NCBI RefSeq assembly: GCF_017603825.1
Contig: NZ_CP072014.1
Coordinates: 1,302,001-1,366,000, forward strand
Source of the DNA: Arthrobacter crystallopoietes
Lineage (GTDB): Bacteria > Actinomycetota > Actinomycetes > Actinomycetales > Micrococcaceae
Reading direction: 5' to 3'
DNA: 64,000 nt
How positions within the stretch are numbered: position 1 is the first letter of the stretch; the number at the start of each line of letters is the position of its first letter. The notes beneath the pieces are model-generated. The model was given only the letters and a program-made list of their open reading frames with translations, had not been told where the DNA came from and made no database searches. The position numbers and the translations under genes were made by a program. Below are positions 4,009-55,370 of this stretch, one piece after another.

Positions 4009-5172
4009 ATGGATCACGTTCGGGCCCTCGAGCAGTCGATGAACCCCTACCCCCACTACGAAGCGATGCGTGAAACCGCGCCGGTCTTCCATGATGAGCG
4101 GACCGGCATCTGGCAAGTTTTCAAGTACGACGACGTGCACCGCGTCCTGTCCGAGCACGCCACGTTTTCTTCCCAGCGGCCCGACGACGATCAGTCGGAA
4201 ACGGGCCGCCTGTTTGCGGCCAGCCTGATCAACACGGATCCGCCGCGGCACCGGAAGTTGCGCTCGCTGGTCAGTCAGGCGTTCACGCCCAAGGCGGTGG
4301 AAGCGCTGGCCCCGCGCATCGCGGAGATTACCGAGGAGTTGCTGGACGGTTTCGCCTCGGCTGGCACGGCCGATCTGGTCAAGGAGTTCGCCTATCCGCT
4401 GCCGGTGATCGTGATCGCCGAACTGATGGGCATACCGGCCGAAGACCGGGACCGCTTCAAGCTGTGGTCAGATGCGATCGTCAGCACAGTCACGGGCGAT
4501 GAGGGGGAATCCGGGCATGCACTCCACGGGGAGATGGTCGAGTATTTCCTGAGCATGATCGAACAGCGACGGCGTACCCCGGGGCACGACCTGATCAGCG
4601 CCTTGCTGGCGGCCGAAATCGACGGGCAGCAACTGACCGTCCCCGAACTGCTCGGCTTCTGCGCCCTGCTCCTCGTGGCCGGCAACGAAACGACTACCAA
4701 CCTGATCGGCAACGCCGTCCTGACCTTCACCGAACATCCCGGCACCGTGGAGCGGCTGCTGGCCGAACCGGAACTGCTGCCGCACGCGATCGAGGAGGTG
4801 CTGCGCTACCGCTCCCCGGTCCAGGCCATGTACCGGGCAGCTGCCGCTGACACCCTGCTGGGGGACCAGCGCATTCCGGCCGGATCCGTGCTCATCGCCT
4901 GGATCGGTTCGGCCAACCGCGACCCGCGGCAGTTCGAAAGGGCTGAAGAGTACGACGTCGACCGCCCGCCATTCCACCACCTCGCCTTCGGGCAGGGGGT
5001 CCATTTTTGCCTCGGCGCACCGCTTGCCCGGTTGGAGGCCAGAATCGCGCTGCAGGCGATGCTCTCCCGCCTGCCCGGGCTCACAGTGTTGCCTGAGCCG
5101 CCGCTGGAACGGGTGGACAGCACCATTGTCTTTGGCCCGAAGCAGCTCTCGATCTCCTGGCAGCAGGCGTGA
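4009..5172 (+). CDS. Cytochrome P450, class I bacterial type
   Basis: A complete 387-residue soluble P450. It has the I-helix AGNETTTN (about residues 224-231) with the acid/threonine pair needed for O2 activation, the ExxR pair in EEVLRYRSP, and the heme loop FGQGVHFCLG with axial Cys334. An AGGAAGG site precedes the ATG at 4009. It resembles CYP107/CYP109-type hydroxylases. It stands alone, with no ferredoxin or reductase beside it, and could borrow the ferredoxin at 1949. The next gene is convergent. The substrate is unknown, and it is not closely related to the other two P450s in the window. Confidence 0.9.
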   Translation: MDHVRALEQSMNPYPHYEAMRETAPVFHDERTGIWQVFKYDDVHRVLSEHATFSSQRPDDDQSETGRLFAASLINTDPPRHRKLRSLVSQAFTPKAVEALAPRIAEITEELLDGFASAGTADLVKEFAYPLPVIVIAELMGIPAEDRDRFKLWSDAIVSTVTGDEGESGHALHGEMVEYFLSMIEQRRRTPGHDLISALLAAEIDGQQLTVPELLGFCALLLVAGNETTTNLIGNAVLTFTEHPGTVERLLAEPELLPHAIEEVLRYRSPVQAMYRAAAADTLLGDQRIPAGSVLIAWIGSANRDPRQFERAEEYDVDRPPFHHLAFGQGVHFCLGAPLARLEARIALQAMLSRLPGLTVLPEPPLERVDSTIVFGPKQLSISWQQA

Positions 5173-46674: not shown

Positions 46675-46712
46675 GAGCCGGCCGGGAAGATGCAACTCTT
46701 CCCGGCCGGCTC
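46675..46712 (+). terminator. Terminator after the MHS transporter (near-identical copy at 55333)
   Basis: A 15-bp perfect stem GAGCCGGCCGGGAAG/CTTCCCGGCCGGCTC (46675-46689 with 46698-46712) with the loop ATGCAACT. The same 38-bp element with one loop base changed follows the BCCT gene at 55333-55370. Confidence 0.8.
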
Positions 46713-46777: not shown

Positions 46778-47083
46778 CTACCCCATGTGTTCGAAATGGG
46801 CGCGGACCTTGGTGCCGTCCTCGTTGAGCCAGCCTTGCTTCCCGGCATACGAGATCATCCCGGCGAAGCCCTCGCTCCACTCGGACAGTTCGGCCGGCCC
46901 GCTGCGGCGAAGCCTCTCCACGTCCAGCCAGGCGTGGTCGCCATCCACCGCACCTAAGCCGTTGGCCTGCAGCGCAGCAGAGATTCCGTCCACGTCCACG
47001 CCGTGAGCACGGACAGCAAGCTCGCGGAGGTTTTCAACGTCCTGTACGGAAGCTTCCCTGGCTGAATGGACCTTCACATACAT
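46778..47083 (-). CDS. Unknown 101-residue protein, last gene of the monooxygenase operon
   Basis: No family is recognised. The protein is soluble and acidic, without signal peptide, membrane helix or cysteine. The first half is helical (ASVQDVENLRELAVRAHGVD) and the C-terminus is WLNEDGTKVRAHFEHMG. It contains several tryptophans and His residues but no known metal motif. Its ATG overlaps the tautomerase stop by one base (TGATG), so it is translationally coupled and belongs to the operon. A pathway-specific accessory or small enzyme is possible; nothing in the sequence decides this. Confidence 0.7.
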   Translation of the reverse strand: MYVKVHSAREASVQDVENLRELAVRAHGVDVDGISAALQANGLGAVDGDHAWLDVERLRRSGPAELSEWSEGFAGMISYAGKQGWLNEDGTKVRAHFEHMG

Positions 47084-47298
47084 CAGGCGCGCTCGGGTTC
47101 CGGCGATGCCTGCTGTCGTTCCGCGATGGTCTGGTTGGCTTTGGACCAGTGGGTGGTCGGAACCTCACGGATAATCACCGTGGTGTTTTCGGGAAGCGCG
47201 CCGACGGATTCTTCTGCGGCCCGGTGCAGGGCAGCGGTTAGTTCCCGCAGTTGATCCGGCGTGCGGCCCTCGGCAATGGACACCTCAATCAGTGGCAT
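47083..47298 (-). CDS. 4-oxalocrotonate tautomerase family protein
   Basis: A 71-residue tautomerase. After Met removal the catalytic Pro1 (MPLIEVSIAEGRTPDQLREL) is exposed, as in 4-oxalocrotonate tautomerase. The later VIIREVPTTHWSKANQTIAER matches the family's second half. These enzymes move enol/keto double bonds in ring-cleavage products such as 2-hydroxymuconate. It lies 9 bp after the ALDH stop in the operon and overlaps the next gene. It probably isomerises an unsaturated ring-opened intermediate. Confidence 0.9.
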   Translation of the reverse strand: MPLIEVSIAEGRTPDQLRELTAALHRAAEESVGALPENTTVIIREVPTTHWSKANQTIAERQQASPEPERA

Positions 47299-47307
47299 TC
47301 GTTTCTC

Positions 47308-48789
47308 CTATGCGCGCATGACGAACGGGTCCGCTACGGGGCCCTCATCGGTGTTGATCCAGACACTCTTCAACCGCGTGTATTCGTGCATGGACTCCAG
47401 TCCGTGCTCGATGCCCACGCCGCTATTCTTGAACCCCTGCCGCGGCGACATCGGCGACATCGCACGATAGGTGTTGACCCAGACGGTGCCGGCCTCCAGC
47501 CGGCGGCTCATCCGGTGCGCCCTGGCCAGGTTCTGCGTCCAGACGCCGGCGGCGAGGCCGTACTGCGTGTCATTGGCCAAGCGCAGGACCTCTTCCTCGG
47601 AGTCGAAGGGCATGATGGCAGCGACCGGTCCGAAGATCTCCTCGCGGACCACGCGCATCGAATTATCGACGTCGGTCAGGACAGTCGGCGCGTAGAAGTA
47701 ACCGGGCAGATCAATCTCTGGCCGACCGCCGCCGGTCAGTACCTTGGCGCCTTCCGAGACGCCCAACTCAACGTAGGAGCCGACCTTTTCCTGCTGGGCA
47801 GCGAATGCCAGCGGACCGAGTTCGGTGCTGTCCTCGCGCGGATCGCCGATCACGATGCTCTTTGCCCGAGCGGAGACTTTCTCCAGCAGCTCGTCGTACA
47901 CGGACCGGTGTGCGAAGACGCGGCTGCCGGCAATGCAGGTCTGGCCGGCAGCGGCGAAGATGCCGGCGACCACTCCCATGGCAGCGTTGGAGATATTGGC
48001 GTCCTCGAACACAATGTTCGGGCTCTTGCCGCCCAGTTCCAAGGTGCAGCCGATGAAGCGCGCTGCCGCGGAAGCCGCGATGGCGGAACCGGTGGCGGTG
48101 GAACCGGTAAAGGAGATCTTGGCAATCTCCGGGTGGTCCACCAGCGCGGCGCCGGCCTCGGCGCCCAGGCCGGTCACTACGTTGACCACACCGTCGGGGA
48201 ACCCGGCCTCGACGGTCAGTTCGGCCAGCCGCAGCACGGTGCGGGAGGTGTATTCGGACGGCTTGATGACCAAGGTGTTGCCGGCAGCCAGCGCTGGGGC
48301 AAGCTTCGACGTCGTCAAGGTCAGGGGAGAGTTCCAGGGGGTGATGGCGCCGACCACGCCGAGCGGTTCGCGCTGGGTGTAGTTGAGGACGGCGGGATTC
48401 ATTGTTGGAATCTGGCTGCCCTGCACCTTGTCCGCCAGTCCGGCGTAGTAATACAGGTACTCGGGCAGTGTTGCCAGTTGCCCGCGCATTTCACGCAGCA
48501 GCTTGCCGTTGTCCGCGGTTTCCATCTGCGCCAGTTCCTCGGCATGCTCGCCGACGAGGTCGCCCAGCTTGCGCAGGAGATGGCCGCGCTTGGTCTGGCT
48601 CAGGTCACGCCAGAGCGGATTCTCGAAGGCTGCGCGGGCAGCGCGGACGGCCGTGTCGACATCGGCCTTGCTGCCGCGGGCGGCAGCGTAGAGGACCTCG
48701 AGGGTGGCCGGGTTGGTGCTCTCGAAATAGGCGCCTTCGGCAGGGGTGGCCCATTTGCCGTTGATGAAGTGCTCGTATTGCCTAGTCAT
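47308..48789 (-). CDS. Aldehyde dehydrogenase of the monooxygenase operon
   Basis: A 493-residue NAD(P)-dependent aldehyde dehydrogenase. It has GAITPWNSPL, LELGGKSPNIVF with the general-base Glu, and AAAGQTCIAGSR with the nucleophile. It resembles semialdehyde and phenylacetaldehyde/betaine-aldehyde-type enzymes. Its start overlaps the hydrolase gene by 8 bp. In the known trigonelline and pyridine pathways an ALDH oxidises the semialdehyde made by flavin-dependent ring cleavage; that is the proposed role here. A 2-hydroxymuconic-semialdehyde-type function would also fit the tautomerase next door. Confidence 0.9.
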   Translation of the reverse strand: MTRQYEHFINGKWATPAEGAYFESTNPATLEVLYAAARGSKADVDTAVRAARAAFENPLWRDLSQTKRGHLLRKLGDLVGEHAEELAQMETADNGKLLREMRGQLATLPEYLYYYAGLADKVQGSQIPTMNPAVLNYTQREPLGVVGAITPWNSPLTLTTSKLAPALAAGNTLVIKPSEYTSRTVLRLAELTVEAGFPDGVVNVVTGLGAEAGAALVDHPEIAKISFTGSTATGSAIAASAAARFIGCTLELGGKSPNIVFEDANISNAAMGVVAGIFAAAGQTCIAGSRVFAHRSVYDELLEKVSARAKSIVIGDPREDSTELGPLAFAAQQEKVGSYVELGVSEGAKVLTGGGRPEIDLPGYFYAPTVLTDVDNSMRVVREEIFGPVAAIMPFDSEEEVLRLANDTQYGLAAGVWTQNLARAHRMSRRLEAGTVWVNTYRAMSPMSPRQGFKNSGVGIEHGLESMHEYTRLKSVWINTDEGPVADPFVMRA

Positions 48790-49534
48790 GGATATCTCGA
48801 CTCGATTCTTCGATGAACTCGATGATGATGCGTGCCAGTTCCGCCGGGCGCTGCACGGGCAGCATGTGCCGCGTATTAGGTACGACGGCGGTGCGGGCGC
48901 CGGGAATTGCCTCGCCTAAACGCCGGGTCATCTCCGGCGTGGAGCCCGGGTCCTGGTCTCCGGTCACGGCCAGGGACGGCACCGCGATGGTCCCGAGCTC
49001 GGCCCCGATTTCAGCGTCGGCTGTGGCAAACACGCGGTATGCATGCAGGTAGGAGCTCGGATCGTTGGCCAGCAGCGTCCGGCGGACACCGGCCACCGTG
49101 GCCGGATCCGTGCCGGCATCGGCCGGGAACCAGCGCTGGATGGACGCCTCCACGCTCCCGGAGAAGTCCGTGGCGGCATTCTGCAGCCGGGCATCCACGG
49201 ATTCAGCCTCCTGAAGCGTCCGCAGGCAGACCGAACTGACGCTGGTGAGGGTGGCCACCCGCTCCGGATGGAACCGGGCCAGATGCTGTGCGATCAGTGC
49301 CCCCAGCGAAAACCCGACAAGGTGGGCTCGCGCTGGGAGCCGGTTCGCGACGTCGTCCGCCAGGTCGCCAAGCGAAACTTCCCGTTCCAGCGGCGGCCGG
49401 CTGCCGTGGCCGGGCAGATCCAGGGCAAGGACCTCACGGTCGCTGGCCCGGCTTACTTCGTCCCGGAACTGGTCCCACATGGTGCTGTCCAGCCCCACAC
49501 CGTGGAGCAGGACGATCGGCAGTTTCGCGTCCAT
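48782..49534 (-). CDS. Alpha/beta-fold hydrolase of the monooxygenase operon
   Basis: A 250-residue alpha/beta hydrolase. It has the oxyanion loop LLHGVGLDSTMW, the nucleophile elbow GFSLGA (Ser76), the acid in TGDQDPGSTP and the histidine in PNTRHMLP. Relatives include 3-oxoadipate enol-lactonase, meta-cleavage hydrolases and E-2-(acetamidomethylene)succinate hydrolase. It is separated from the upstream DUF1185 gene by 2 bp and overlaps the ALDH gene by 8 bp. In a ring-cleavage pathway it would hydrolyse the enamide or lactone intermediate. Confidence 0.9.
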   Translation of the reverse strand: MDAKLPIVLLHGVGLDSTMWDQFRDEVSRASDREVLALDLPGHGSRPPLEREVSLGDLADDVANRLPARAHLVGFSLGALIAQHLARFHPERVATLTSVSSVCLRTLQEAESVDARLQNAATDFSGSVEASIQRWFPADAGTDPATVAGVRRTLLANDPSSYLHAYRVFATADAEIGAELGTIAVPSLAVTGDQDPGSTPEMTRRLGEAIPGARTAVVPNTRHMLPVQRPAELARIIIEFIEESSRDIHD

Positions 49535-49536
49535 GG

Positions 49537-50088
49537 CTACTGTTCCGTTGACAGGGCTGCCAACCGCTGCTGCGGACGTCCCTGGGACGCAGCGGCGAGG
49601 GCGATGACGATCTCGCCCGGGTGCGGTGCATCGGCCAGCCGGACCTCAATGCTCTGGTGGTGCGAGCGGATGGTCGCGTCGGTGATGTGCTTGAGCGGAA
49701 TGTCGAACGTGACTCCGGCCGGTCCGCGCTTTTCCACAGCAGGCAGCAGGGTGGTGGCGTTGGCCGCATTGCGGAAGTGGTCGCCGAACTTCAGCGTATG
49801 GATCAGGGCCGAACCATGCTCGATCTCGCCGTCCAGGCCGACGATCGCGGCCTTGCCGTAGGCTTCGACATTCCCGCCCAGTGTCTTGACCACGCGCGGT
49901 GCGAGGAGTTCGCCGATGTCGGACGCTACCGCGTCGATGCCGGCGGTGAGGTCTTCGACGAATCCCTGTCCGTGCCAGGGGTTCTCGATGATCGCGGCGA
50001 CGACAACGACACGGGCGTTAGGTTCGACGGGCCGGCCGCCCTCGGTGAGGGTCTCTTCAACCAGAGTGACGATCTTGCGGACGTTCAT
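49537..50088 (-). CDS. DUF1185 (PF06684, 'amino acid synthesis') protein, copy 2
   Basis: A 183-residue protein of the PF06684 family. It shows the conserved N-terminus MNVRKIVTLVEETL, NPWHGQGFVEDL, GKAAIVGLDGEIEHGSALIHT and SHHQSIEVRL. Family structures have a chorismate-mutase-like fold; no reaction is established to my knowledge. Its start overlaps the stop of copy 1 (ATGA) and the two are clearly paralogues, so they may form a heteromer. Being inside a monooxygenase operon points to a catabolic step such as isomerisation or hydrolysis of a ring-opened intermediate. Confidence 0.85.
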   Translation of the reverse strand: MNVRKIVTLVEETLTEGGRPVEPNARVVVVAAIIENPWHGQGFVEDLTAGIDAVASDIGELLAPRVVKTLGGNVEAYGKAAIVGLDGEIEHGSALIHTLKFGDHFRNAANATTLLPAVEKRGPAGVTFDIPLKHITDATIRSHHQSIEVRLADAPHPGEIVIALAAASQGRPQQRLAALSTEQ

Positions 50089-50714
50089 GCGGTGGCTCCT
50101 TCAAGAGTGCGGGAAGTTACTGCAGGGTCGGTTTTGCGGTCGCCGATTCTGGCGTGCGGACGCGGTCCGGTTGAGGCCGCGGCAACGACGACGATCTCGT
50201 CCGCCCGGGGCCCGTCCGGAATCCGGGCGGTAATGGTCTGGTAGTGGCTGCGGGTTGCCGCGTGGGTCTTGTGCCACATCGGCACGACCAGCGGTTGCCC
50301 CGCTTCGGCCCGGTCGTCGGCGAAGCAGATGATGGACGAGCCGTCGAGGTACTCCCGGACAAGGTTGCCGAAGAACGGAGTATGGATCAGTGCACCCGCG
50401 TGCTCGATCTCGCCTCCGATTCCGACGATGGCGGCCTTGCCGAAGGCCTCGATCTCCTCAACGCCGCCGAGTCCGTCAATCAGACGGTCGGTCAGCGCCT
50501 TGGCGATGTGCGGGGCGACCCGCTGGGCCTCGGGTCCCAGATCCGTGTCCGGTCCGGTGCCGTTCCAAGGGTTGGTAATAACAGCGGCTGCGGTGGCCCG
50601 CAGGGCCGGCACCGGTGGCATGGTGCCGTTCTCTACCAAAATCTCTTCCTGGTAGTAGACGATCTTCCGGATGCCGGCGGCTACGTCCGGCGTGGGCTGC
50701 TCAATGCTAGTCAA
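50085..50714 (-). CDS. DUF1185 (PF06684) protein, copy 1
   Basis: A 209-residue paralogue of the next gene. Matching blocks are GIRKIVYYQEEILVENG, NPWNGTGPDTDL, FGKAAIVGIGGEIEHAGALIHTPFFG and SHYQTITARI. It has ~11 extra residues in front and a longer C-terminal tail. The GEIEHxxALIHT stretch, shared by both copies, holds two conserved histidines and two acids and probably lines the active site. It overlaps the monooxygenase gene by 8 bp, which ties it functionally to that enzyme. Confidence 0.85.
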   Translation of the reverse strand: MTSIEQPTPDVAAGIRKIVYYQEEILVENGTMPPVPALRATAAAVITNPWNGTGPDTDLGPEAQRVAPHIAKALTDRLIDGLGGVEEIEAFGKAAIVGIGGEIEHAGALIHTPFFGNLVREYLDGSSIICFADDRAEAGQPLVVPMWHKTHAATRSHYQTITARIPDGPRADEIVVVAAASTGPRPHARIGDRKTDPAVTSRTLEGATA

Positions 50715-51825
50715 AGTGGGGCTTCACTTTCTCGGAGAACAGCTCGAGGCTGCGCATTGCCTTTTCGTGCTTCAAGCCGGGGTGCGTGGTCCAGAGCATC
50801 ATGTGCTCAAGGCCGACTTCGCGCTTCAGTTCGTGGATCTTTTCGGTGACGAACTCGGGCGTGCCGACCAGCATGTTGCGGTCCATCAGGAGGTCGAAGT
50901 CCAGCTTGTGCTCGTCGGTTAGATCTTCGCCCTCTTCCATCAGGTTGGACAGGCCGCGCCAGTGGGTGATCCATTTGTAGGTGTTCAGGACCGCTTCCTC
51001 GAACTCTTCGCGTGCCTGCTCCATCGTGTCCGCCACGTAGACATCGCGGACCAGGGCGATGCCCTCGCCGAGCGGAACCTCGCGGCCCTGGGCCTTGGAG
51101 GCATGTTCACGGTACAGCTCGAACCGCCCCTTGAGCGCGGACACCGGCGGCAGCCAGAAGATGCCCTGCACGCCGGTTTCAGCGGCACTGATGATGGAGC
51201 GGGGTGTATCGATGACCTGCCAGAGCGGGAGTTCGGGCTGCAACGGGCGGGGGACTACCGCCATCTTGGTGATCTCGCCGTTTTCGGTGAAGTCCGGGGT
51301 GGCGGGCGAGAGCGGGTGGCTCCACTTCACGCCCGGCGCGGGGAACTCGTAGAACTCGCCCTTGTGGCTGAAGAACTCGTTATTCCAGGCCTTCTGCAGG
51401 ATCTCCATGGTCTCGGCGAACAGCGCGCGGTTCTTTTCCTGGTCGCGCGGATCGGCCGCCGGGTTCAGGTTCAGTGCTTCGCGGCCATACAGGCCCCGGC
51501 CCACGCCTACTTCGAGGCGGCCGTCGGAGAGCTGGTCCAGCAGGGCGAGATCCTCGGCAAGCCGCAGCGGGTGCCAGAAGGTGACGATCGAGGCGGCCTG
51601 GCCGATACGGATCTTCGAGGTGCGCGCGGCAATGTCGACACCCATCATGATCGGGTTGGGGGTCAGCTCCTGCCCCTCGTGCCCGAAGTGGTGCTCCGTG
51701 TACCAGGTGGACCAGAAGCCGTACTTCTCTGCAGCGACCGCATACTCGCGGGCGTCCTTCATATGCTGGTTGTAGTTGGCCAGATCGCCGGGGGCGCCGA
51801 GGCCGTGGAAAATTGAAAAGCGCAT
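50707..51825 (-). CDS. LLM-class flavin-dependent monooxygenase (luciferase-like)
   Basis: A 372-residue bacterial-luciferase-fold oxygenase. It has WYTEHHFGHEGQELTPNPIMMG near residues 40-60, IRIGQAASIVTFWHPLRLAEDLALLDQLSDGRLEVGVGRG, the highly conserved LLM core, and a C-terminal WTTHPGLKHEKAM. These enzymes use reduced FMN supplied by a separate reductase; the SnoaL-flavin reductase fusion across the divergent promoter is the likely supplier. Related two-component LLM enzymes open the rings of trigonelline (TgnA) and pyridine (PyrA in Arthrobacter). It lies 48 bp after the GntR gene and is preceded by AAAGGA. Confidence 0.9.
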   Translation of the reverse strand: MRFSIFHGLGAPGDLANYNQHMKDAREYAVAAEKYGFWSTWYTEHHFGHEGQELTPNPIMMGVDIAARTSKIRIGQAASIVTFWHPLRLAEDLALLDQLSDGRLEVGVGRGLYGREALNLNPAADPRDQEKNRALFAETMEILQKAWNNEFFSHKGEFYEFPAPGVKWSHPLSPATPDFTENGEITKMAVVPRPLQPELPLWQVIDTPRSIISAAETGVQGIFWLPPVSALKGRFELYREHASKAQGREVPLGEGIALVRDVYVADTMEQAREEFEEAVLNTYKWITHWRGLSNLMEEGEDLTDEHKLDFDLLMDRNMLVGTPEFVTEKIHELKREVGLEHMMLWTTHPGLKHEKAMRSLELFSEKVKPHFD

Positions 51826-51873
51826 GGTTGGTCCTTTCAGGGTGGCTCAAAAATGGTTTAGCTAAGGAAGTCT

Positions 51874-52560
51874 TCAGTCAGTTCGGTCGCGCGAGTCCGT
51901 CAGGACTTCGCGGGAGGACGCATAGACGTGGTTGCGCATGGCCGCTTCGGCACCGAAATGGTCTTTGTCTTTGATCATGGCCAGCACGGTGCGGTGTTCC
52001 GAGGTGGAGGAGCTGATGCGGCCAGGGTGGCCGGCCGTGCGCAGTACCAGCCGGTGGTAGGCCAGCTGGTTCATCAGCCGCTCGTAGTGCTCGGCAAGTT
52101 TGCTGTTGTCCGCACCCGTGATGATCGTGTGGTGGAACTCGTGGACCAGCTCGGCGTAGCGTTCGACGTCCTGCTCGGCCGCCGCTTCGTCGGACTCCTC
52201 CACGTTGCGTTCAAGGATTGAAATCTCCCGTACTTTGCCCCGGCGGGCCAGCAGGCCTGCTGCGAGTCCTTCGAAGCTTTCCTTGAGCTGGAACAGTTCG
52301 ACAATCTCGCGTCGCGTGGGTTCACGGACGAAGGTGCCGACCTTAGGGCGAATCTCCACCAGGCCTTCATGCTGCAGCTGCTTCAATGCCTCGCGGATGG
52401 GAGTGCGGCTGACGTCGAATTCCTGTGCGAGGAAGACCTCGGACACCGGGGCTCCGGGGGGAAAGTCGCCTCCGAGGATAAGCGTGCGCACCTTATCGAG
52501 GAGAGGCTCTCCTTGAAGGGCACCGTTTCTGCCCGGCTGATTCACGATCGTCTGTTGCAT
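51874..52560 (-). CDS. GntR-family regulator, FadR/FCD subfamily
   Basis: A 228-residue regulator. The N-terminal winged helix has VSEVFLAQEFDVSRTPIREALKQLQHEGLVEIRPKVGTFV and a C-terminal all-helical FCD ligand domain carries the metal-binding residues in ELVHEFHHTII and SEHRTVLAMI. The start is taken as ATG 52560 because a promoter places the transcription start exactly there (leaderless); a frame extension to 52581 would cover the -10 box. It is first in the monooxygenase operon and probably represses it and the divergent flavin reductase-BCCT unit until an inducer acid binds. Confidence 0.92.
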   Translation of the reverse strand: MQQTIVNQPGRNGALQGEPLLDKVRTLILGGDFPPGAPVSEVFLAQEFDVSRTPIREALKQLQHEGLVEIRPKVGTFVREPTRREIVELFQLKESFEGLAAGLLARRGKVREISILERNVEESDEAAAEQDVERYAELVHEFHHTIITGADNSKLAEHYERLMNQLAYHRLVLRTAGHPGRISSSTSEHRTVLAMIKDKDHFGAEAAMRNHVYASSREVLTDSRDRTD

Positions 52561-52585
52561 ACATGAGACATTATGTTGCATGCAT
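52554..52585. promoter_or_regulatory. Two GTTGCATRCAT direct repeats (candidate GntR operator)
   Basis: GTTGCATACAT (52554-52564) and GTTGCATGCAT (52575-52585) are spaced by exactly 21 bp, two helical turns. The first covers the gntR start codon and predicted transcription start, the second lies inside the -35/-10 spacer. A third copy of GTTGCAT, inverted, covers the start codon of the divergent gene (52701-52707). Confidence 0.6.
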
Positions 52586-52596
52586 CACGTCGTCAA
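52568..52596 (-). promoter_or_regulatory. Promoter of the gntR-monooxygenase operon (leaderless)
   Basis: On the minus strand TTGACG (52596-52591), a 17-bp spacer and TAATGT (52573-52568) stand 7 nt before ATG 52560. The predicted transcript therefore starts at or next to the A of the start codon. No Shine-Dalgarno is present, which agrees. Confidence 0.65.
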
Positions 52597-52663
52597 GTGG
52601 ATGCGGCAATTCCTGAAAAAAATCCCATCTTTTCGGGAGTTTTGGAGTTTTTTGGATTGCCTG

Positions 52664-52693
52664 TTGACCGCTCGGCGTGATGCAGATTACGCT
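52664..52693 (+). promoter_or_regulatory. Promoter of the SnoaL-flavin reductase/BCCT unit (leaderless)
   Basis: TTGACC (52664-52669), 18 bp, TACGCT (52688-52693), and 7 nt later ATG 52701. The spacing predicts transcription from the start codon, matching the lack of any Shine-Dalgarno and mirroring the divergent gntR promoter. Confidence 0.55.
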
Positions 52694-52700
52694 GTCTGCC

Positions 52701-53648
52701 ATGCAACAGACTTTTGAGAACGCAGTAGCGAACGCTTGGGAAGCCGCTTGGGACCGGGGGGAAGTGGAAGCGCTTGCAGCGCTGGTCACTCCTGATTACG
52801 TCAGGGTCAGCAAGGGTAGTGGAAAGGCCTCTAGCCTCACGCAACACCAAAATGAAATCCTCGCGATCAGGGAAGGGTTCCCAGACTTGGTGACTACCGT
52901 CGACGCTGTAGTCGTGAACGGTGAGACCGCGGCGATCTTCTGGACCTCAACGGGAACGCATACGGCTCCGTTCATGGGCGTACCGCCCACGGGACGCCAA
53001 GTACAGACACGCGGTTCCAATTTCCTGACCATGGAGAACGGCCGGATCAAGCAGGAAACCGTTACCTGGGACAGCAGCGAACTGCTCGCGTCCCTCGGCA
53101 TCCGCCACCTGGGCGACGCGATGGCACCGGCAGACCCAGGCGTCGTCGTCGATTCTCTCGCGGGTGAGCCAGACCTCGAAATCATGAAAACCTTCAACAG
53201 GCAGTTCGTGACCGGCGTTACCGTGGTCACAACGAACGAAAACGGCGTTCCCAAGGGGCTGGCAGTCAACGCCTACGCGTCCGTTTCGCTGGAACCGCCG
53301 CTGGTCATGGTCTGCATCCAGAAAACGTCCTCCACCTACCCCGCCCTGTTCGCTTCGAGCCACCTGGGCATAAACATCCTTAGCAACCAGCAAAAAGACA
53401 CCGTTTCCACTTTCGCATCAAAATCCGCGGACAAGTTTGCCGACCTGGACTGGCACACCGGACCCAACGGATCACCGCTGATCGACGGATCTTCCGCGGC
53501 GCTTGAAGCCGAGATCCGGGAACGCTTCCAGGCGAAGACCCACACCATCTTCATTTGCCGCGTACGCCACGCAGAAGTGAGCGAGACGGCGCCGATGGTA
53601 TATCAGGCAGGCCGCTTCTTCGACAGCGAAGGCCTGTCCCAGCTCTGA
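52701..53648 (+). CDS. Fusion of a SnoaL-like domain and a flavin reductase domain
   Basis: A 315-residue two-domain protein. Residues 1-~140 form a SnoaL/NTF2-like barrel (AVANAWEAAWDRGEVEALAALVTPDYVRV...GRQVQTRGSNFLTMENGRIKQE). Residues ~155-312 form a DIM6/HpaC-type flavin reductase domain (FNRQFVTGVTVVTTNENGVPKGLAVNAYASVSLEPPLVMVCI...LGINILSNQQ), which reduces free FMN or FAD with NAD(P)H. It almost certainly feeds the LLM monooxygenase. The SnoaL part could bind or isomerise an intermediate, or hold the partner. ATG 52701 is chosen from the leaderless promoter; GTG 52677 and ATG 52680 are alternatives. Confidence 0.85.
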   Translation: MQQTFENAVANAWEAAWDRGEVEALAALVTPDYVRVSKGSGKASSLTQHQNEILAIREGFPDLVTTVDAVVVNGETAAIFWTSTGTHTAPFMGVPPTGRQVQTRGSNFLTMENGRIKQETVTWDSSELLASLGIRHLGDAMAPADPGVVVDSLAGEPDLEIMKTFNRQFVTGVTVVTTNENGVPKGLAVNAYASVSLEPPLVMVCIQKTSSTYPALFASSHLGINILSNQQKDTVSTFASKSADKFADLDWHTGPNGSPLIDGSSAALEAEIRERFQAKTHTIFICRVRHAEVSETAPMVYQAGRFFDSEGLSQL

Positions 53649-53689
53649 CGTCCACGGGACGCCCTACACCTGAAATTCGGAGACCACTC

Positions 53690-55312
53690 ATGGTTCAACA
53701 AATCACCCGTCCGACGGCGGATGACGTGCCTAAAGACAACCTGCCGGACGAGCCGGAAGACACCGGATCGCGGCGTCTTGGTGCCGTTTTCTGGTCGTCC
53801 ATCGCCCTGATCGCGGCCTTTGTCTTGTGGTCTTCGGTGTCGCCTCAGAGTCTGGGCGACGTCATGACGGCCAGCATGAACTGGGTAGCAGCCTCCGTGG
53901 GGTGGAGCTACCTAGTGGTGACTCTGCTGTGCATTGGTCTCATGCTCTACCTGGGCCTCAGCCGCTTTGGTGGCATCCGACTCGGTTCCGATACCGACCG
54001 GCCCGAATACAGTACATGGGCCTGGCTCGCCATGATCCTGTCGGCTGTGATGGGGATCGGCCTCATCAGCTACGGTGTGGCGGAACCCATCTCCCATTTC
54101 ATGGCCCCGCCGCATGCTCTGGCGCAGCCCGAAACGATGGAAGCCGCAGTCCGAGCCATGCAGTTCAGCTTCTTCGATTGGGGCCCGCATGCCTGGGCAG
54201 TCTTCGGAATTTTCGGTTTGGCGATCGGGTATTCAACGCACCGTAAGAAGCGCCCCGGCCTGGTTTCCCCGATGCTGCGTCCGATCTTCGGCAAGCTGGT
54301 GGACGGTTGGTTTGGCAAGATGATCGACGTTTTCGCCATCATTGCCACTCTCTTTGGCACCACGACTTCGCTGGGGCTGGGCGCTTCGCAGATCGCCGAG
54401 GGCTTGGGACGGGTGTTCGGGGTCTCGTCCGGCCTCGTCACCCAGATACTGATTATTGCTGTGGTAACCATCCTGTTCACGCTGTCGGCGCTTTCCGGTG
54501 TCAACCGCGGCATCAAGTACATCAGCCAGATCACTATGACGCTGTCGCTGGCGCTGGCCATCTATGTCTTCATTGCCGGCCCCACCAACTTCATTTCCAA
54601 CCTGTTTTTCCGGTCTGTCGGGCAGTACTTCAGCGACTTCCTGCAGGTCAGCCTGATAACCCCCAGCACTCCGGATGATCTGCAGTGGATGCAGTGGTGG
54701 ACCTACTTCATGATGGCTTGGTGGCTCAGCTGGGGCGCTTTCGTCGGAGTCTTCCTGGCGAAGATTTCCCGCGGCCGCACCATCCGCCAGTTCGTGGCAG
54801 GCGTGCTCGGCGTGCCCAGCCTGGTCTTCTTCGCCTGGTTTACCATCTTCGGCGGCTCCGCCATTCAGATGGACATGAACGGCGCGGGTATCGGTGCGGC
54901 GACAACCGAGAACATCAATAGCGCATTCTTTGCAATGCTGGAGAACCTACCGCTCGTCCAGCTCACGGCAGTAGTCACGGTTGTCCTTGTTGCCCTCTTC
55001 TTCATCTCGGGGGCCGATGCGAATACGTTTGTCCTGAGCATGCTGTCCTCGAAGGGCAGCCTGGAACCGAGCAAGCCGGTTCTCGGGCTTTGGGGCGGAC
55101 TGACCGGAGCCTGCGCCGTTCTCCTGCTGCTGGTTGGCGGACTAACGGCCCTGCAGCAGGCGGCGATGCTCTCAGCGTTGCCCTTCACGGTCATCGTGGC
55201 ACTCCTCGGAACATGCTTGGTCATGGAACTGAGGAAGGACCGGGAGTTCGAGGCTCTACGGCACGCACGGCTCAAGGACCTGGATGAAAAGGGTAAAAAC
55301 ACACCCGCTTAG
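53690..55312 (+). CDS. BCCT-family betaine/carnitine/choline-type transporter
   Basis: A 540-residue permease with twelve predicted helices. The family signature in helix 8 is seen as WWTYFMMAWWLSWGAFVGVFLAKISRGRTIR (around residues 335-365), with MGIGLISYGVAEPISHFM in helix 3. BCCT proteins import quaternary ammonium compounds such as betaine, choline or carnitine. GGAGA precedes ATG 53690. It lies 41 bp after the flavin reductase fusion and is followed by a terminator. In a monooxygenase regulon it is more likely an uptake system for a growth substrate with a betaine-like charge than an osmotic-stress transporter. Confidence 0.9.
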   Translation: MVQQITRPTADDVPKDNLPDEPEDTGSRRLGAVFWSSIALIAAFVLWSSVSPQSLGDVMTASMNWVAASVGWSYLVVTLLCIGLMLYLGLSRFGGIRLGSDTDRPEYSTWAWLAMILSAVMGIGLISYGVAEPISHFMAPPHALAQPETMEAAVRAMQFSFFDWGPHAWAVFGIFGLAIGYSTHRKKRPGLVSPMLRPIFGKLVDGWFGKMIDVFAIIATLFGTTTSLGLGASQIAEGLGRVFGVSSGLVTQILIIAVVTILFTLSALSGVNRGIKYISQITMTLSLALAIYVFIAGPTNFISNLFFRSVGQYFSDFLQVSLITPSTPDDLQWMQWWTYFMMAWWLSWGAFVGVFLAKISRGRTIRQFVAGVLGVPSLVFFAWFTIFGGSAIQMDMNGAGIGAATTENINSAFFAMLENLPLVQLTAVVTVVLVALFFISGADANTFVLSMLSSKGSLEPSKPVLGLWGGLTGACAVLLLLVGGLTALQQAAMLSALPFTVIVALLGTCLVMELRKDREFEALRHARLKDLDEKGKNTPA

Positions 55313-55332: not shown

Positions 55333-55370
55333 GAGCCGGCCGGGAAGATGCAATTCTTCCCGGCCGGCTC
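55333..55370 (+). terminator. Terminator after the BCCT gene (near-identical copy at 46675)
   Basis: A 15-bp perfect stem GAGCCGGCCGGGAAG/CTTCCCGGCCGGCTC (55333-55347 with 55356-55370), loop ATGCAATT, followed by TTT. It differs from the hairpin at 46675-46712 by one loop base. Confidence 0.85.

Follow-up and report, generated by a model that had tools for sequence, protein, structure and literature searches.

A predicted trigonelline-type operon of Arthrobacter crystallopoietes whose putative ring-opening oxygenase belongs to a separate clade and is exchanged with TgnB-like enzymes

Introduction

Trigonelline and its isomers serve as osmolytes of plant and marine origin. The trigonelline (tgn) pathway of Acinetobacter baylyi was reportedly described by Perchat et al. 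in 2018. The pyridine (pyr) pathway of Arthrobacter opens the ring with a luciferase-like flavin-dependent oxygenase (LLM) and a flavin reductase, and its end product is succinic semialdehyde (SSA). The present study concerns a divergent regulon at positions 46778-55312 of a 64,000-nucleotide stretch of the Arthrobacter crystallopoietes genome (NZ_CP072014.1, positions 1,302,001 to 1,366,000), which is called the window below and to which all coordinates refer unless another locus is named. The regulon appears to be of the Tgn type, and what seems to be new, as judged from the compared sequences, is that its oxygenase comes from a separate LLM clade and trades places with TgnB-like enzymes. 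The oxygenase kind found in the window is designated type W, and the TgnB-like kind type T.

Genes and layout of the regulon

The initial annotation had described a packed operon of a GntR regulator, an LLM, two DUF1185 proteins, a hydrolase, an aldehyde dehydrogenase (ALDH), a tautomerase and one further protein, diverging from a reductase fusion and a BCCT transporter. Reading of the open reading frames (ORFs) together with Pfam searches confirmed all ten genes at their positions and on their strands, as well as the overlaps and short gaps between them.

The arm on the minus strand starts with the GntR/FCD regulator (51874-52560, frame open to 52581; PF00392 and PF07729), which is followed by the type-W LLM, the proposed ring opener (50707-51825; PF00296, 166 bits). 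Two DUF1185 proteins come next, namely protein A, a TgnF-like paralogue with a TTG start (50085-50714; PF06684, 184 bits), and the TgnF-like protein B (49537-50088; PF06684, 204 bits), the gathering cut-off being 27 in both cases. The alpha/beta hydrolase (48782-49534; Abhydrolase_6) and the ALDH (47308-48789; PF00171) may serve the TgnD-like and TgnC-like steps, respectively. The arm is completed by a 4-oxalocrotonate-tautomerase-type protein with a proline directly after the start methionine (Pro1; 47083-47298; PF01361, 49 bits, cut-off 22) and by a protein of 101 amino acids (aa) without a Pfam or NCBIfam match (46778-47083). The genes overlap by 8 bp (LLM and DUF1185 A), 4 bp (DUF1185 A and B), 8 bp (hydrolase and ALDH) and 1 bp (tautomerase and 101-aa protein), and the remaining spacings are 2, 9 and 48 bp. 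The plus-strand arm consists of a SnoaL-like domain fused to a flavin reductase (52701-53648, frame open to 52677; PF07366 and PF01613) and a BCCT-family importer (53690-55312; PF02028), which scored 453 bits with TIGR00842 (cut-off 407.55) and missed the glycine-betaine equivalog cut-off (534.7 of 650 bits).

DUF1185 A and B fall into separate clades of the DUF1185 tree, and protein B has the solved relatives 2qtp and 3byq. A confident AF2 model was obtained for the 101-aa protein (pLDDT 87); its comparison with the PDB gave no fold match at E 0.001.

The arms are separated by a divergent control region (52561-52700) in which the intergenic alignment revealed two facing TTGAC-like boxes. Across 17 aligned intergenic regions from W and T operons, the reductase-side TTGAC box was present in all 17 and the GntR-side GTCAA box in 16. 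The conservation of these boxes moved the likely starts of the GntR and reductase genes to 52560 and 52701, respectively. The whole regulon is enclosed by two near-identical 38-bp palindromes resembling terminator hairpins, at 46675-46712 on the left and at 55333-55370 on the right, the latter folding at -46 kcal/mol (z -9.35). At a tolerance of up to 2 mismatches, the 4.38-Mb genome contains just these two copies of the 34-bp palindrome core, and no exact match to the inner 28 bp was present among 182 fetched loci. A scan for promoters and terminators gave no excess over shuffled sequences.

Conservation of the gene set

The same gene set was found in other genomes, both within the family and outside it. 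Nine of 295 sampled Micrococcaceae genomes, the window genome among them, carry an LLM 82-100% identical to that of the window. The 14.5-kb stretches around the other eight W genes all keep both DUF1185 genes, the hydrolase, ALDH, GntR, tautomerase and reductase; the importer is a BCCT protein in two of them and an NCS1 carrier in the other six. A scan of named genomes was evaluated for the best 80 of at least 551 candidate loci. When the LLM was at least 55% identical (41 loci), DUF1185, hydrolase and ALDH were each present in 41/41 and GntR in 38/41, and a reductase of the probed family lay nearby in 26/41. Such near-constant neighbours indicate that the gene grouping exceeds chance. At 47-53% LLM identity (21 loci), DUF1185 was found in 14, hydrolase in 19 and ALDH in 17, several of the contigs being short.

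The W operons of Streptomyces, Saccharopolyspora, Bacillaceae, marine Acidimicrobiia and SAR11 share with the window the LLM (47-77% identical) and, in most, DUF1185, hydrolase and ALDH. They differ in having a single DUF1185 gene outside the two-copy actinobacterial group, in their importers and in the additional genes of Bacillaceae, where an FMN reductase, YciI and a second ALDH are extra in many operons, and NCS1, a riboflavin kinase and an amidase of the isochorismatase family in some. The SnoaL and reductase halves lie in different frames in loci L017-L020, and the SnoaL part is either fused or adjacent in relatives. In SAR11 Pelagibacteraceae (L079, L081-L083), the genes after the W-type LLM encode a thiamine-diphosphate enzyme, a distant DUF1185, a hydrolase and an ALDH.

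The tautomerase is encoded in each of the family's 9 W loci, the window's among them, and in 19/21 of the type-T loci described below. Among the 41 loci of the named genomes whose LLM reaches 55% identity, it was matched in just 5, namely four of Micrococcaceae and one 38% match away from a Streptomyces operon, and it was set aside as a core member for this reason. The 101-aa protein is encoded in the three W genomes that belong to the genus of the window, and it has relatives in L017 (39% over 54 aa; 35% in the alignment) and, as a weak 25% match, in L104; it had no match across the 21 T-type loci. By these locus counts both proteins are lineage-specific additions rather than signs of a new pathway; the initial annotation had counted them among the grounds for a possible new variant.

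Comparison with Tgn-type clusters

The reference clusters were those called Tgn-type by their gene content (Acinetobacter venetianus and similar), not tgn of A. baylyi itself. For TgnB of A. baylyi, a figure legend gives the UniProt accession Q6F9F6 (PMC11354265). The cluster of Sinorhizobium meliloti pSymA contains GntR, DUF1185, hydrolase, reductase, LLM, ALDH, NIPSNAP, an ABC importer and succinate-semialdehyde dehydrogenase (SSADH), and those of Acinetobacter venetianus and Pantoea piersonii contain DUF1185, hydrolase, reductase, LLM, ALDH and a cytosine permease. DUF1185 is also annotated in a Leisingera Tgn-type cluster. This gene content suggests that the Sinorhizobium, Acinetobacter, Pantoea and Leisingera clusters are tgn clusters.

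The DUF1185 proteins had originally been regarded as lying outside the known pathways. According to one report, the DUF1185-type protein HcdD is homologous to TgnF, and TgnF stimulates the TgnE-dependent oxidation of SSA (PMC7913881). This homology and the occurrence of DUF1185 in the Tgn-type clusters ruled it out as a sign of a new pathway. Protein A is 41-49% and protein B 44-49% identical to the DUF1185 proteins of these clusters, as expected for TgnF-like helpers. The reductase domain (PF01613) is 36-44% identical to the Tgn-cluster reductases and is thus TgnA-like. The Pantoea LLM aligns with that of the window only partially (34% over 145 aa).

Unrelated ALDHs reach 50-54% identity to the window enzyme, and ALDH identity is therefore no guide to Tgn membership. 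In the ALDH tree the window enzyme groups with those of the Tgn clusters, which in turn fall among the enzymes of marine W-type clusters; this nesting was not relied on because the tree lacks the unrelated ALDHs of 50-54% identity. From the ALDH, DUF1185 and hydrolase trees 26 listed loci were left out. In Arthrobacter dokdonellae, genes for SSADH and riboflavin kinase adjoin the operon. Among plasmid relatives, genus counts were nearly equal for DUF1185 B at E 1e-30 (345 records) and for the TgnB-like LLM at E 1e-40 (326 records). Among the rows listed, none bore the name PyrA.

The window and Tgn of A. baylyi would have in common a two-component flavin oxygenase, an ALDH, a hydrolase, a DUF1185 helper and, probably, a betaine N-heterocycle as substrate. 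The LLM of another clade, the two DUF1185 paralogues, the tautomerase, the SnoaL-fused reductase, BCCT and the lack of SSADH in the operon are the window's own.

Two oxygenase types

A tree of 40 hand-picked LLM rows placed the W enzymes in one clade (support 99/93) and the T core in another (100/100), the window LLM lying outside the TgnB-type cluster. In a larger LLM tree, 88/111 rows were kept after removal of 22 near-copy loci and of rows shorter than 280 aa. The identities of the T LLM of A. dokdonellae plasmid pDCT5 (L140) are 48-56% with the LLMs recorded for Acinetobacter, Rhizobium, Sinorhizobium, Pantoea, Leisingera, Azospirillum and Paraburkholderia, and 29-30% with the W LLMs listed.

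A T LLM was found in 40 of the 295 family genomes (two matches, G122 and G009, being partial), a W LLM in 9, and both in none. Ten genomes were sampled from the window's genus, of which three have W, five T (one partial, G122) and two neither. In 7 of the 40 T genomes (G075, G180, G232, G049, G284, G125 and G036) the match was flagged with one in-frame stop, which may reflect decay or an end-of-frame effect.

Exchange of the oxygenase in near-identical operons

Type-T loci were fetched for 19 of the 40 T genomes and from one genome of another family (L180); with pDCT5, which is one of the 40, they make 21 loci. GntR, both DUF1185 genes, hydrolase and ALDH were found in 20/21 (19/20 of those fetched). 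Locus L173 has the LLM alone, without the core, and L180 has no tautomerase or reductase match. The operon of pDCT5 is of the window type and carries a T LLM; relative to the window, the identities are 79% for ALDH, 80 and 69% for the DUF1185 proteins, 73% for GntR, 69% for the tautomerase, 63% for the reductase and 54% for the hydrolase. In four T loci of the window's own genus, ALDH is 88-93%, DUF1185 B 86-93% and BCCT (3/4 loci) 85-89% identical. The T operons of Micrococcaceae (for example pDCT5 and the same-genus L163-L166) share with the window GntR, two DUF1185 genes, hydrolase, ALDH, tautomerase, reductase and either BCCT or NCS1, with proteins up to 93% identical. They differ in the oxygenase and its place, since the T LLM stands behind ALDH or the tautomerase, whereas the W LLM stands between gntR and DUF1185 A.

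The tree of ALDHs from 65 operons (40 W, 25 T) showed that the LLM label switches at least 7 times, 6 of these switches being forced by supported branches; the count covers operon ALDHs only, 14/79 near-copy rows having been removed beforehand. A close sister pair within one genus, L016/L172, carries different LLM types.

Remnants of the W gene in T operons

The four same-genus T operons match the window at the DNA level by 80-83% over about 47.1-50.7 kb. The W gene is missing from all four. Beyond it, three of them match the window again over 51.9-55.3 kb at 79-81%; the fourth, an NCS1 operon, does so up to 53.7 kb at 73%. The junction between gntR and DUF1185 was inspected in 20 T loci (the 21 less L173). 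The ends of the W gene were matched in 10/20 junctions at E <=0.01 and in 9/20 at E <=1e-5, and 1/400 junctions reached E 0.01 in a control of single-base shuffles. The queries reached 35 bp upstream of the W start codon, and some of the 5' matches could therefore reflect a shared leader; the matches extend some 30-50 nt into the gene, and the 3' matches are independent of the leader. In L163 (junction at 4330-4620), L166 and L168 the junction contains a frame of 30 codons built from the first and last codons of W, and L180, from another family, has a longer W-derived frame with a different junction. These short in-frame ORFs end just before the DUF1185 gene, and they are perhaps kept for translational coupling.

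The reverse search, for T remnants behind the tautomerase of eight W operons (stretches of 0.2-1.6 kb), gave nothing convincing, the one match covering 18 nt (E 0.025). The remnants therefore indicate that W was present first in these lineages and was deleted where T now serves. That W was dispensable there suggests that both enzymes do the same job. Some W operons, including that of the window, nest among T operons in the ALDH tree, which implies that differential loss from an ancestor with both types, or transfer, was also involved.

Exchange of the importer

The importer was recorded for 66 operon loci of types W and T, two Tgn-type loci included. BCCT is the sole carrier in 28 and NCS1 in 30, whereas 6 have both and 2 neither. 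Both carriers are found with each oxygenase type in Micrococcaceae (W loci, n = 8: 2 BCCT, 6 NCS1; T loci, n = 19: 9 BCCT, 7 NCS1, 3 both), and an OpuAC protein is encoded near the L025 operon. The alternation of a betaine carrier with a nucleobase-type carrier is best explained by a zwitterionic N-heterocycle as substrate. An isochorismatase-family amidase, with BiuH and RutB as best matches, is present in 20/36 loci with NCS1 and in 0/30 without it (p 2e-7, shared descent ignored). As a guess, the NCS1-amidase operons could receive an amide such as 1-methylnicotinamide.

Discussion

The initial annotation had proposed that the regulon serves catabolism by cleaving the ring of a betaine-like N-heterocycle. 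The Tgn-type gene set and the use of BCCT/OpuAC or NCS1 importers are consistent with this proposal, which may now be narrowed. In our judgement the regulon is likely to serve the catabolism of an N-methylpyridinium betaine, most probably trigonelline itself, as a trigonelline-type operon in which the W LLM carries out the step of type T, or TgnB. The assignment agrees with a report in which trigonelline breakdown begins with ring opening by TgnA/TgnB, an action of these enzymes on homarine being judged unlikely (PMC8269262). Confidence in this assignment rests on the oxygenase exchange and on the remnants.

For the substrate, chemistry and regulation of the regulon we infer the following scheme. 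BCCT would import the zwitterion, and the SnoaL-fused reductase would provide reduced flavin mononucleotide (FMNH2). With it the W LLM would open the ring next to the charged nitrogen to give an N-formyl aldehyde or hydroxylactone. The ring-opened product would be oxidised to an acid by ALDH, and the hydrolase would then release methylamine, formate and CO2, the products of hydrolysis in the Tgn pathway, leaving SSA. The pair of DUF1185 proteins may act as TgnF-like helpers; one mixed A/B oligomer is possible because the solved relatives were described as hexamers (PMC2954203). SSA would be finished by an SSADH encoded elsewhere in the genome, and GntR would control both arms.

Several observations weigh against this assignment. 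The window LLM, which does not class as a TgnB orthologue, is only 25-29% identical to the Tgn-type LLMs, and a joint W and T clade excluding 11 other LLMs was rejected by the approximately unbiased (AU) test (p 0.016, the group having been named after the tree was viewed). The absence of co-occurrence of W and T is weak evidence and not significant when taken alone (about 0.27 by hypergeometric arithmetic), as 1.2 genomes with both would be expected under independence. The hydrolase belongs to the same family as the Tgn-cluster hydrolases but is only 29-34% identical to them (in a tree without a broad outgroup), and the ALDH is 45-48% identical to the Tgn-cluster enzymes, no higher than to unrelated ALDHs. 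No TgnE-like SSADH is present in the operon, the nearest homologue (72% to the L140 enzyme) lying in the same genome (G000) at 2,283,841, about 2.28 Mb. The second ALDH of Bacillaceae is mostly 33-37% identical to a Rhizobium SSADH, and its best model match is lactaldehyde dehydrogenase. At 38-46% LLM identity (18 loci of the best 80), the core was mostly absent (DUF1185 in 3, hydrolase in 2, ALDH in 7). Finally, the authors of the report on HcdD could not demonstrate a TgnF-like effect for that protein (PMC7913881).

The distinct clades of W and T are what would be expected if a swap of one gene retargeted the operon, the two enzymes differing in the N-methylpyridinium isomer or amide that they open (trigonelline, N-methylisonicotinate, homarine, 1-methylnicotinamide), with tolerant downstream enzymes serving both. 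The confinement of the amidase to NCS1 loci hints at an amide input in some operons and agrees with such a switch, as do the neighbourhoods in which two oxygenases are found, namely L106 with a W-like and a T-type LLM gene and L099 and L100 with a W-like and an L013-like LLM. However, the importer and ALDH remain 85-93% identical across the exchange in the window's genus, each importer type is found alongside either LLM type in Micrococcaceae, none of the W genomes of the family has a T match, and the remnants imply that T made W dispensable. A change of substrate with the oxygenase is thus considered unlikely.

Breakdown of another N-heterocycle (pyrimidine, hydantoin or thiamine-derived) in the manner of the Rut pyrimidine pathway, with NCS1 as the ancestral importer, would account for NCS1 in many relatives and for the BiuH and RutB matches of the isochorismatase, and the flavin reductase, hydrolase and LLM families of the window recall RutF, RutD and RutA. 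The window proteins nevertheless lie far below the Rut cut-offs (RutF 80 of 254.75 bits, RutD 40.8 of 238.5 bits), RutA chains match the LLM profile at best with E 7.5e-5, BCCT occurs without NCS1 in 28/66 loci, and the gene set matches Tgn-type clusters. A Rut-type system was rejected, as the RutA, RutD and RutF equivalog levels were not reached and the 23 families listed for the window LLM did not include RutA; a Rut-like breakdown is accordingly very improbable. It is even harder to credit a non-heterocyclic betaine (carnitine, butyrobetaine or a compound like dimethylsulfoniopropionate) whose C-N or C-S bond the LLM would cleave. The BCCT importer would suit such a substrate, and the ALDH scores high, though below the cut-off, on the betaine-aldehyde dehydrogenase model; yet NCS1 occurs without BCCT in 30/66 loci, T-type LLMs occupy the place of W, and the hydrolase and DUF1185 would be left without an evident role.

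If the trigonelline-type assignment is taken further, the chances appear evenly balanced that type W represents an undescribed family of ring-opening LLMs, ranging from Streptomyces and Bacillaceae to marine Acidimicrobiia and SAR11, which repeatedly swaps with TgnB-like enzymes in otherwise near-identical operons and leaves in-frame scars, the importer module (either BCCT or NCS1, the latter often accompanied by an amidase) being swapped separately. The operon would then be a plug-in platform for N-methylpyridinium betaines, perhaps also for their amides. Literature listings on trigonelline, TgnB, homarine, pyridine and DUF1185, in a scope that left out most subscription papers, named no W-type operon. 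Gene surveys based on TgnB only would miss W-type operons, among them those of actinobacteria and Bacillota and the ones from marine Acidimicrobiia and SAR11. The scars let the displacement of an oxygenase be read in DNA, and the W and T sister strains, with operons 85-93% alike for several proteins, offer a natural pair for deciding between the same ring opening and different isomers.

Related loci

A third DUF1185 gene of the genome (G000:C1:1890027-1890548, L111) lies beside glyoxalase-like and fumarylacetoacetate-hydrolase-like ORFs, with P450-like and reductase-like ORFs nearby, all named by eye. Plasmid pA of Peribacillus sp. R9-11 (L141) carries GntR, an ALDH 55% identical to that of the window, two other LLMs, a flavin reductase, a riboflavin kinase and BCCT, and is perhaps another flavin-oxygenase betaine cluster.

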